The position numbers were made by a program, and so were the translations under genes. Positions 188 to 18,937 of a DNA stretch of 18,937 nt are shown here, piece by piece (the first letter of the stretch is position 1; each line of letters begins with the position of its first letter). Origin of the DNA: Arthrobacter polaris (GTDB lineage: Bacteria > Actinomycetota > Actinomycetes > Actinomycetales > Micrococcaceae); the NCBI RefSeq assembly GCF_021398215.1, contig NZ_CP071516.1, positions 3,635,716-3,654,652 of the forward strand. The letters are read 5' to 3'. Below the pieces are notes generated by a model. That model did not search any database, was not told the origin of the DNA, and saw only the letters and a list, made by a program, of their open reading frames with translations.

Positions 188-197
188 TGTGTATTGT
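169..197 (+). promoter_or_regulatory. Candidate promoter of operon 1
   Basis: TTGCGT (169-174) and TATTGT (192-197) are separated by 17 bp, a sigma70-like layout with 3/6 and 4/6 consensus matches. The -10 lies just inside the repeated unit while the -35 is in unique DNA. Transcription would start near 204 and give a leader of about 380 nt. Support is only the spacing and position, and other starts are possible. Confidence 0.25.
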
Positions 198-582
198 TTA
201 TCGAGTTGTCCTGGACAAGGGCGGCGGGATCGGTCAGGAAAATGAAGGTTTATTCTTTGGTTTTCTGGTGGTTGTGTGGTGTGGTTCACTGTAGAAGTGA
301 GTTTGCATTGCAGGGCTGGATGGTCTAAGCTTGAAAAGTTGCCCCGGTGCTGATCATCGTGAACATGTTGGTTGTGTTTGTGTGTGTTGGCTGGGTGTTG
401 TTGTTGTTTGAGAACTCAATAGTGTGCCAAGTTTTATTGATACCAATTTATTTATATTGAATTGGTTATTTGGTTTTGTTGTTGCCGCCCCTGTGGTGAT
501 GGCAGAATCGTTTAGCTGGTTTCGAATTTAGTGCATGCATTCATTACCTTTTCCGGTGTGTTTGTGTGTGTCTGTTTAGTTA
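198..582 (+). promoter_or_regulatory. Leader of rRNA operon 1
   Basis: G/T-rich transcribed leader. It contains a boxA element at 402-418, and the 27-nt segment 404-430 that pairs with ITS1 (2335-2359) to bracket 16S. A small hairpin has ACCAATT and AATTGGT arms around an AT-rich loop at about 441-465. A conserved GCATTCAT near the 3' end can pair with ATGAATG in the start of ITS1. Just before 16S this copy lacks three bases (a G and two T) present in the other two leaders. No reading frame here looks coding. Confidence 0.6.
402..418 (+). promoter_or_regulatory. boxA antitermination element, leader of operon 1
   Basis: The sequence TGTTGTTTGAGAACTCA matches the boxA type found in rRNA leaders of actinobacteria and Bacillus-like bacteria (TGTTnTTTGAnAACT). 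BoxA RNA is bound by NusB-S10 to protect rRNA transcription from early termination. Its recurrence in all leaders and ITS1 regions supports the call. Confidence 0.6.
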
Positions 583-15921: not shown

Positions 15922-16428
15922 AAGGAGCACCAAACACCTGAACACTGTTCGCATGAATGGTTGTTGTGGGTGTGAGGAGTAAAGACCTATAGCGAGAACG
16001 AAAGTTTCTCGGTAGGTTGCTCAAGGGTGGAATATCAATAAAATAGCCGATGATCGGCATCTGGCGACCTGGTGTTAGTACCGCATCCTTGATGGGGTGT
16101 GAGGAAGATACTGTGTGGGTTGTGTGGGTGTTGGTTGTTATGTGTTTGGCACACTGTTGGGTCCTGAAACAACAACGAGAGTTGTTGATTTCTGGTTTCC
16201 TGCACATAACCGACTGAATGGCTTGGGTGGATGCTCTGTGAGTGTTTGCTGTTGTTCAGGGAGTGTGTGGTGGGGTTGTTGTTTGAGAACTACATAGTGA
16301 ACGAGAGCATCTTTATAAAGAAGCAATTTCTTTGAGATAATTGAACCTGGATCTGATGCTGATGACTTTGGTTGTTGGTGTTGGTTTCATGGTTCTCTCG
16401 ATATAGTTTTGTTGACTGCATGTGTGTG
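15922..16428 (+). other. 16S-23S internal transcribed spacer, operon 3
   Basis: About 507 nt, no tRNA gene. Pre-16S 3' arm 16146-16172, boxA 16277-16293, pre-23S 5' arm 16292-16310. The last arm has A at 16304 where operons 1 and 2 have C, which would break one pair unless ITS2 of this operon (outside the window) carries a matching change. One T is missing near 16387. Confidence 0.78.
16277..16293 (+). promoter_or_regulatory. boxA element, ITS1 of operon 3
   Basis: Same sequence as 2464-2480. Confidence 0.6.
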
Positions 16429-18937
16429 GTCAAGTTTTAAGGGCACACGGTGGATGCCTTGGCATTAGGAGCCGAAGAAGGACGTAGGAATCTGCGATAA
16501 GCCTCGGGAGTTGATAACCAAACTTTGATCCGAGGGTGTCCGAATGGGGAACCCCGCTACCCGGTGCAAGCCGAGGTGGTGACCCGCATCTGAATATATA
16601 GGATGTGTGGAGGGAACGTGGGAAGTGAAACATCTCAGTACCCACAGGAAGAGAAAACAAAAGTGATTCCGTTAGTAGTGGCGAGCGAACGCGGAACAGG
16701 CTAAACCGTGTCATGTGTGATAGCCGGCGGGCGTTGCATGGTGCGGGGTTGTGGGACTTACCGATCTGAATCTGCCGGTTCAGGAAGGGGAATAGTGCAT
16801 GTATAGGTGAACGGCTTTGAATGGCCGACCGTAGAGGGTGAGAGTCCCGTAACCAAAATGCAGTGCACTCCCTTGGGTGAGTATCCCAAGTAGCACGGGG
16901 CCCGAGAAATCCCGTGTGAATCTGTCAGGACCACCTGATAAGCCTAAATACTACCTAATGACCGATAGCGGACAAGTACCGTGAGGGAAAGGTGAAAAGT
17001 ACCCCGGAGGGGAGTGAAATAGTACCTGAAACCGTGTGCTTACAATCCGTCAGAGCAAGCGTGCACCCTTGGGTGTAGTTGTTCTTGTGATGGCGTGCCT
17101 TTTGAAGAATGAGCCTGCGAGTTAGTGTTACGTCGCGAGGTTAACCCGTGTGGGAAGCCGTAGCGAAAGCGAGTCTGAATAGGGCGAGTATAGTGGCGTG
17201 ATCTAGACCCGAAGCGAAGTGATCTACCCATGGCCAGGTTGAAGCGCGTGTAAGAGCGCGTGGAGGACCGAACCCACTTCAGTTGAAAATGGAGGGATGA
17301 GCTGTGGGTAGGGGTGAAAGGCCAATCAAACTTCGTGATAGCTGGTTCTCCCGAAATGCATTTAGGTGCAGCGTTGCGTGTTTCTTACTGGAGGTAGAGC
17401 TACTGGATGGCTAATGGGCCCTACAAGGTTACTGACGTCAGCCAAACTCCGAATGCCGGTAAGTCAGAGCGTAGCAGTGAGACTGTGGGGATAAGCTTCA
17501 TAGTCGAGAGGGAAACAGCCCAGACCACCAACTAAGGCCCCTAAGCGTGTGCTAAGTGGGAAAGGATGTGGGATTGCTTAGACAACCAGGAGGTTGGCTT
17601 AGAAGCAGCCATCCTTAAAAGAGTGCGTAATAGCTCACTGGTCAAGTGATTCCGCGCCGACAATGTAGCGGGGCTCAAGTACACCGCCGAAGTTGTGGAT
17701 TTCAAACATTACCCTAGCCAGGTTTTCCTGGTTCAGGGGTTTGGAGTGGTAGGGGCGTCGTGTAGGCATTGAAGCCGCAGTGTGAACTAGCGGTGGAGCC
17801 TACACGAGTGAGAATGCAGGCATGAGTAGCGAAAGACGGGTGAGAAACCCGTCCGCCGAATGATCAAGGGTTCCAGGGTCAAGCTAATCTGCCCTGGGTA
17901 AGTCGGGACCTAAGGCGAGGCCGACAGGCGTAGTCGATGGACAACGGGTTGATATTCCCGTACCGGTGAAGAACCGCCCCTATTGAACTGCTGATACTAA
18001 CCACCCAAACCACCACTGCGTGTCCTTCGGGACCAGGGTGTGTGGGGAGCGTGGGACCTGAACCAGGGAGGTAAACGTATTAACAGGTGTGACGCAGGAA
18101 GGTAGCCGAGCCGGGCGATGGTAGTCCCGGTCTAAGGACGTAGGAAACACGATAGGCAAATCCGTTGTGTTGTCTTCAATGACAATTCTGAGATCTGATG
18201 GGACCCCGTAGGGAATTCAGTGATCCTATGCTGCCTAGAAAAGCATCGACGTGAGGTTCCAACCGCCCGTACCCCAAACCGACACAGGTGATCAGGTAGA
18301 GAATACTAAGGCGATCGAGAGAATTATGGTTAAGGAACTCGGCAAAATGCCCCGTAACTTCGGGAGAAGGGGCCTGCCTCGTAAAGGAACCTAGCGTTCC
18401 GTGAGCGAGTGTGGGCCGCAGAGACCAGGGGAAGCGACTGTTTACTAAAACACAGGTCCGTGCGAAGTCGCAAGACGATGTATACGGACTGACTCCTGCC
18501 CGGTGCTGGAAGGTTAAGAGGACCGGTTAGCCAACTTGTTGGCGAAGCTGAGAATTTAAGCCCCAGTAAACGGCGGTGGTAACTATAACCATCCTAAGGT
18601 AGCGAAATTCCTTGTCGGGTAAGTTCCGACCTGCACGAATGGAGTAACGACTTCCCCGCTGTCTCAACCATAAACTCGGCGAAATTGCAGTACGAGTAAA
18701 GATGCTCGTTACGCGCAGCAGGACGGAAAGACCCCGAGACCTTTACTATAGTTTGGTATTGGTGTTCGGAGTGGCTTGTGTAGGATAGGTGGGAGACTGT
18801 GAAGCTACAACGCTAGTTGTAGTGGAGTCATCGTTGAAATACCACTCTGGTCACTTTGGACATCTAACTTCGGCCCGTAATCCGGGTCAGGGACAGTGCC
18901 TGATGGGTAGTTTAACTGGGGCGGTTGCCTCCTAAAA
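16429..18937 (+). rRNA. rrl: 23S ribosomal RNA, operon 3 (3' end outside the window)
   Basis: The first 2509 nt of 23S; the window stops at the point equivalent to 5121 in copy 1, so about 636 nt of 23S plus ITS2 and 5S are missing. The GTPase centre and the peptidyl transferase GGAAAG segment are present, with A at the 2058 equivalent (18727). Copy-specific readings are GGAGGGGAGTGAAA near 17005 (fullest of the three), GTAGGGGTG near 17308, loss of AG near 17755 (GGGGCGTCG for GGGGAGCGTCG), C for A at 17980 and A for G in GAATTCAGTG near 18219. Confidence 0.94.

Follow-up and report, generated by a model that had tools for sequence, protein, structure and literature searches.

Three tandem rRNA operons with near-identical spacers at an origin-proximal locus of Arthrobacter polaris

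Why should complete ribosomal RNA (rRNA) operons lie head to tail in a bacterial chromosome, separated by spacers that agree almost base for base? This question is raised by an 18,937-nucleotide stretch (the window) of the single-contig 4.17-Mb genome of Arthrobacter polaris (labelled G000), which corresponds to positions 3635716-3654652 of contig NZ_CP071516.1. An original prediction, made from the sequence, recognised three rrn units in this DNA and proposed that they had been amplified recently or are homogenised by recombination. Our analysis favours, with a probability of roughly 87%, the reading that three complete rrn operons form a genuine tandem array at an oriC-proximal locus, in a lineage with three conserved rrn loci in which recombination keeps the units alike.

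Rfam searches and a self-BLAST comparison reproduced the predicted unit starts exactly: three 16S-23S-5S units, all on the plus strand, begin head to tail at window positions 188, 7015 and 13995. Positions 188-5828 match 7015-12652, and positions 188-5121 match 13995-18937, each at 99.4% identity. Unit 1 contains the genes for 16S rRNA (583..2109; RF00177, 1560 bits), 23S rRNA (2615..5758; RF02541, 2645 bits) and 5S rRNA (5849..5964; RF00001, 95.1 bits), and unit 2 their counterparts at 7413..8940 (RF00177, 1560 bits), 9449..12591 (RF02541, 2665 bits) and 12815..12930 (RF00001, 95.1 bits). In unit 3, the 16S rRNA gene (14393..15919; RF00177, 1558.5 bits) is followed by a 23S rRNA gene that is cut by the window end (16427..18937; Rfam). 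This unit finishes beyond the window, with its 5S rRNA gene at contig positions 3655515-3655630, and the repeat ends at 3655741, next to a JetC-like gene, at its 3' end. Unique DNA adjoins the array on both sides. The whole genome has six 16S and six 5S rRNA genes, that is, six operons, all on the plus strand and distributed over three loci: the three units described here (array A), a pair (array B, at 4101020 and 4107885) and a single operon (C, at 1011441). Array A begins ~42 kb downstream of dnaA (3592644-3594005, plus strand) and is oriented away from it. Given two roughly equal replichores, all six operons would lie on one of them and be directed away from the origin. ARAGORN found no transfer RNA (tRNA) gene in the window.

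The two spacers, at 5965..7014 and 12931..13994, had been predicted to be almost identical and devoid of any visible gene, and our results are consistent with both statements. From 5S to 16S, an alignment of 1463 columns contains 2 mismatches and 4 gap openings. The spacer interiors, defined as the spacer minus its first 110 and last 400 bases, display 0 substitutions in 937 aligned bases together with 16 gap columns; 14 of these match the difference in length that stems from the shorter terminator of unit 1. No gene was recognised in either copy, and Pfam searches with 4 of the 11 spacer open reading frames (ORFs) of at least 70 amino acids gave no match. Array A is a tandem cluster in the sense of at least two complete 16S-23S-5S operons on the same strand with no recognised gene between them (as judged from these 4 of 11 ORFs). 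The interior (6080-6900) is present just twice in the genome, in the two spacers of the array, and a search of 22 other genomes of the genus, a check that the original prediction had suggested, returned no match. We also considered that the spacer could be a copy of the local flanks, generated by an end-to-end duplication, and rejected this idea, as the interior has no match in the flank stretches compared; similarity between spacer and flanks is limited to ~110 bp after the 5S rRNA gene and to the leader. In each spacer, moreover, a 17-bp sequence (ATTATTGGTGACTCGAT) occurs two times in direct tandem, at window positions 6757-6790 and 13737-13770, respectively.

A survey of relatives rules out that this arrangement is an oddity of a single strain. 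Our genus sample comprised 23 genomes, 10 of them near complete (at most 4 contigs); the remaining 13 are fragmented (at least 20 contigs), with 0-1 16S rRNA genes each or, in G015, three partial matches, and were left uncounted. All 57 of the 57 16S rRNA genes detected in the near-complete genomes could be assigned to three loci, based on the genes that flank them on one or both sides, or on adjacency to a unit placed in this manner. Locus A is bordered by fhaA-pstP-rodA-pbpA-pknB on one side and jetC-jetB-jetA-rpsF-ssb-rplI-dnaB on the other, with the jet genes identified by PADLOC and the remaining genes presumably named correctly from their protein sequences. Locus B lies between a glgE gene and an alpha-amylase/ATP-binding cassette (ABC) transporter region (Pfam), and locus C follows a tyrosyl-tRNA synthetase gene (Pfam). 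The numbers of units at A/B/C are 3/2/1 in G000, 2/3/1 in G001, 2/2/2 in G002, 3/5/1 in G003 (with one unit at B split by contig ends and visible as 23S/5S only), 1/2/2 in G006, 2/2/1 in G009 (one unit at A containing an N gap), 2/2/2 in G010 (the pair at C crossing contig ends), 2/3/1 in G011 (with locus A spanning two contigs), and 2/2/1 in both G019 and G021. Locus A carries at least two units in 9 of these 10 genomes, including G009 and G011, where the count runs across a gap or contig break. The three-locus layout is therefore conserved in the genus, and each locus can hold tandem units. No paper describing such a genus-wide pattern was found among the open-licence full texts listed. The predicted ease of copy-number change fares less well: the variation itself is evident, at 1-5 units per orthologous locus across the 10 genomes, and supports the ease of change only indirectly.

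Tandem units also occur in more distant relatives. Among 18 family members outside the genus (no more than 3 contigs, two or more 16S rRNA genes), at least 4 (G068, G073, G082 and G083) have a same-strand pair less than 12 kb apart, in a survey that scored 4 candidates per genome and may have missed some pairs. At locus B, G082, a member of a different genus, carries five units that repeat every 6548-6549 bp, in addition to a single unit at locus C, and G073 has two units at locus B. In the wider order, 2 of 10 other genomes (1-2 contigs, at least two 16S rRNA genes) contain a same-strand pair less than 12 kb apart (G099 and G100). For the rplI gene next to array A, the nearest named match among the best 80 of 448 is that of Arthrobacter sp. 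H35-MC1, at 95%. In the drafts of this strain and of Arthrobacter sp. E3, contigs begin inside the 5S rRNA gene and continue with the same terminator at locus A; at the other 78 of the 80 loci, no rRNA was found beside locus A in the stretch compared.

Homogenisation is indicated by the spacers of these arrays. We compared 37 spacers from 15 genomes, leaving out those of G009-A and G011-A and the broken spacer of G003-B; they range from 815 to 4731 bp in length, and some of the longer ones contain ORFs. In all 7 arrays with at least three units (G000-A, G001-B, G003-A, G003-B, G011-B, G082-B and G041 contig 7), the spacers are near-identical within the array and more alike there than between species, as expected of an array under concerted evolution. 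At least one spacer pair has 0 interior substitutions in 5 of these 7 (G000-A, G001-B, G003-A, G003-B and G082-B), and the spacers on contig 7 of G041 differ by 6 substitutions in 4051 bases. Between species, interior BLAST matches of more than 150 bp were limited to G002-B/G011-B and G041/G068. This within-genus comparison supports the proposal of recent amplification or homogenisation. Similarity can also extend from one locus to another. The spacers at B and C of G010 show 0 differences in 981 bases, those at A and B of G019 2 differences in 305, and spacers from different loci are partly similar in G001, G002 (A/C), G021 and G010 (A versus B/C). The contig 3 spacer of G041, which may or may not represent a second locus, is identical in sequence to the first of those on contig 7. 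In G021, a ~1.6-kb portion of the locus A spacer shares 98% identity with DNA next to array B, a further sign of inter-locus exchange, and in G001, G002, G003, G006 and G009, shorter pieces of spacers match array flanks.

The occurrence of nearly the same spacer at two loci in G010 and G019, together with the direct repeat at 6757 and 6774 in the G000 spacer, could be read differently, with the spacer itself being a mobile or selected element, such as a recombination hot spot, that drives the duplication of the operons. However, the interiors share no common sequence between most species, no Pfam domain was detected in the 4 G000 ORFs tested, and flanking homologous operons are enough to explain the copying, so that we consider a driving role of the spacer highly improbable. 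As a separate observation, spacer 2 of G003-B carries an insertion of ~1.27 kb with a 301-amino-acid transposase-like ORF, presumably related to IS3-type transposases, in one of the three spacers compared. Its confinement to one spacer shows that assemblies can keep differences between the spacers of an array.

Differences between the units allow their relationships to be examined. An alignment of the six operons of A. polaris, in which columns containing N were skipped, revealed 24 single-base homopolymer indels versus 18 substitutions, as well as 7 single-base indels of other kinds and 9 that are longer; most of the differences between units are thus indels that look like long-read errors. 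Unit 1 has the highest number of private indels (12, compared with at most 7 in each other operon), and it is the sole operon of the six that lacks ~143 bp of the second internal transcribed spacer (ITS2), which is consequently short (5759..5848, plus strand), and the 3' arm of the terminator. Both deletions may be sequencing errors. The ITS2 and terminator differences had been put forward as proof that units 1 and 2 are distinct loci, and given that these lesions are unique among the six operons and occur in the unit with the most private indels, they carry less weight than was assumed. At columns 231, 465 and 4021, units 1 and 2 have common states that are absent from the other four operons, and column 2893 has a state common to all three units of array A. 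Unit 3, in turn, carries substitutions relative to units 1 and 2 at columns 231, 465, 2339, 4021 and 4262. Judged by these sites, units 1 and 2 appear to be most closely related to each other and unit 3 stands apart, which, with unit 3 joined to unique DNA, inverts the earlier view that unit 3 is the locus with the weakest evidence. The pattern would fit the recent gain of a third unit at a two-unit locus through unequal crossing over, with few sites involved and one of them contrary.

The same data bear on the possibility that the count of three units results from an assembly error, in which a true pair at locus A was expanded by mis-joined long reads and spacer 2 was produced by the assembler as a copy of spacer 1. 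Such an error would account for spacer interiors that differ by indels only, for the few substitutions between units 1 and 2 and for the concentration of private indels and two hairpin-associated deletions in unit 1, and contig ends or gaps are also seen inside the arrays of other genomes. It is at odds with the five substitutions that set unit 3 apart and with the unique DNA joined to both array ends. Moreover, G003 also has three units at locus A, and 3-5 units per array are found again in G001, G003, G011, G082 and G041. On balance, we regard an artefact as unlikely. Five stretches of 16-20 kb around rrn loci contain 22-46 N runs each, mostly single bases, which could represent masked polymorphism or an ambiguous consensus; the window has no N bases, operon C has five, and unit 3 of array A has one.

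How the units are transcribed can be considered on the basis of their leaders and terminators. Every unit in the window opens with a leader (188..582, 7015..7412 and 13995..14392, plus strand) that contains the promoter-like hexamers TTGCAT and TAAGCT at a spacing of 17 nt, recognised by eye at 303-308 and 326-331 in unit 1, with the corresponding -35-like and -10-like elements at 7130-7135 and 7153-7158 in unit 2 and at 14110-14115 and 14133-14138 in unit 3. The leader block common to many operons of the genus begins at the second hexamer (window position 7153), and the exact leader pattern had no match in the genome-contig collection. The leader of array B unit 2 (contig positions 4107464-4107486) is of the unit 1 type, matching for 22 bp past the point at which units 2 and 3 stop, and the upstream promoter region of array B unit 1 differs from that of its neighbour. 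At the other end, folding predicts an intact rrn terminator-like hairpin after unit 2 (12942..12984, plus strand) and likewise after unit 3, whereas unit 1 retains a damaged remnant (5976..6000, plus strand) without the 3' arm; the folding energies of the 70-nt terminator regions are -27.5 kcal/mol for units 2 and 3 vs -10.6 kcal/mol for unit 1. A presumed pre-23S processing stem, whose 3' strand in unit 2 (12598..12649, plus strand) pairs with 9290-9339, yields a duplex of -72.7 kcal/mol in this unit vs -53.3 kcal/mol in unit 1. With a promoter-like leader before each unit and a terminator-like hairpin after all of them except unit 1, the units are probably transcribed separately.

The missing 3' arm and tail of the unit 1 hairpin could alternatively reflect selection for co-transcription, such that a single long transcript would run from unit 1 across the spacer into unit 2; terminator-like scan matches in the spacer show no excess (2, against a shuffle mean of 1.9). 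Yet the lesion affects one unit of six and lies beside other probable errors, unit 2 retains its own promoter-like leader, and the hairpin is kept in units 2 and 3, which makes selection for a joint transcript very unlikely in our view.

Several points weigh against the interpretation of array A as a real array whose units are kept alike by recombination. Its unit number is read from the assembly, and the array is real as far as an assembly can show. The rrn repeats may not have been polished by short reads, and the near-identity of the units could in part reflect consensus smearing. A substitution at column 4032 conflicts with columns 231, 465 and 4021 in pairing unit 2 with unit 3. Homogenisation is incomplete, as seen from the spacers of G011-B, which differ by 20 substitutions in 1915 bases (7 as counted by BLAST). 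Because the spacer interiors of different loci cannot be aligned in G000, G003 and G006, exchange between loci is not general. Finally, a simple promoter scan, applied to the unit 2 and unit 3 leaders, does not list the proposed promoter, and a simple terminator scan omits the proposed hairpin.

For the array as we interpret it, we infer a recombination mechanism from the sequences compared. Near-identical units would let RecA-type recombination alter their number, with unequal crossing over between units adding or removing one unit plus its spacer, and gene conversion would spread variants inside the array and sometimes between loci. The 1-5 units found at orthologous loci point to unequal crossing over as the probable source of copy-number change. 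If the units act independently, the benefit might lie in a high dosage of rRNA genes close to the origin. It is tempting to go further and regard every rrn locus of this lineage as a small recombining array, with 1 to at least 5 units at three fixed loci, wholesale replacement of the spacer in each species, block copying between loci over hundreds of kilobases, and cultures that are mixed in unit number and can be shifted by growth selection. We see the arguments for and against this broader scenario as evenly balanced.

The array is a new member of a known arrangement, with unusually clear spacer homogenisation, and the original prediction erred in treating tandem operons as a departure for bacteria, in which they are already established. 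Eukaryotic rDNA arrays consist of head-to-tail units with fast-evolving, homogenised spacers; compared to them, array A has far fewer units, made up of bacterial operons, and no dedicated spacer elements were recognised in it. In Bacillus subtilis, a ~60 kb duplication between the rrnJ-rrnW and rrnI-rrnH-rrnG clusters recurs in suppressor strains, according to the section concerned (PMC8266666), and rrnIHG has been termed a large cluster (PMC2885750). As in array A, the operons are clustered, but the clusters of this member of the Firmicutes are marked by tRNA genes in the account available (PMC2885750), whereas array A has no tRNA gene and ~1 kb spacers without a recognised gene. In Streptococcus iniae, a ~7 kb tandem repeat at rRNA1 is described to coexist with the single form in culture, with the PacBio consensus giving the single form and the nanopore assembly the tandem form (PMC9176272). 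As far as described there, this repeat differs from array A in taking in part of a tRNA array and in having two units only. Candidatus Symbiobacter mobilis is stated to have two tandemly repeated rRNA operons (PMC4053972), and a beta-proteobacterial cluster has been characterised by its tandem rrn operon structure, to judge from a title (Pfannes et al., 2007, cited in PMC4053972). As portrayed, the former has two units and belongs to a phylum other than that of array A. Passages on further species report tandem or clustered rrn operons, inferred in Vibrio alginolyticus and seen in S. pyogenes, and an extra rRNA/tRNA cluster in a laboratory strain of Clostridium difficile. A comparison closer to home is offered by Arthrobacter arilaitensis Re117, which we take to belong to the same family as the genome studied here. 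This strain is reported to have six operons on one replichore, three of them near the replication origin (PMC2991359). Operon number and origin-side placement are alike, as compared by position; the adjacency of the operons is not stated in the relevant passage.

The number of rRNA operons is often taken as a species trait linked to growth strategy. A genus with 1-5 units at orthologous sites provides a natural series for determining the rate and benefit of changes in unit number. Assemblies can break or gap at these loci, and the 16S copy number of Arthrobacter-like bacteria may be miscounted.

Two observations concern the surroundings of array A. Homologues of jetA, jetB and jetC adjoin it on the minus strand (contig 3655752-3661206; PADLOC), and the array DNA occupies the place where jetD would be expected from the usual gene order. 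The only JetD_C match in the genome is located at contig position 3289498. Such a match is absent in 9 of the 23 genus genomes, and in five of these (G001, G003, G009, G011 and G019) homologues of both jetA and jetC lie at locus A. The jet genes beside array A may encode a chromosomal complex of the Mks type instead of a complete Wadjet system. In addition, among the best 80 of 448 rplI matches are records titled Sporosarcina, Vibrio cholerae and Acidobacteria that carry an Arthrobacter-like rplI gene (79-89%), which suggests that these public assemblies are mislabelled or contaminated.

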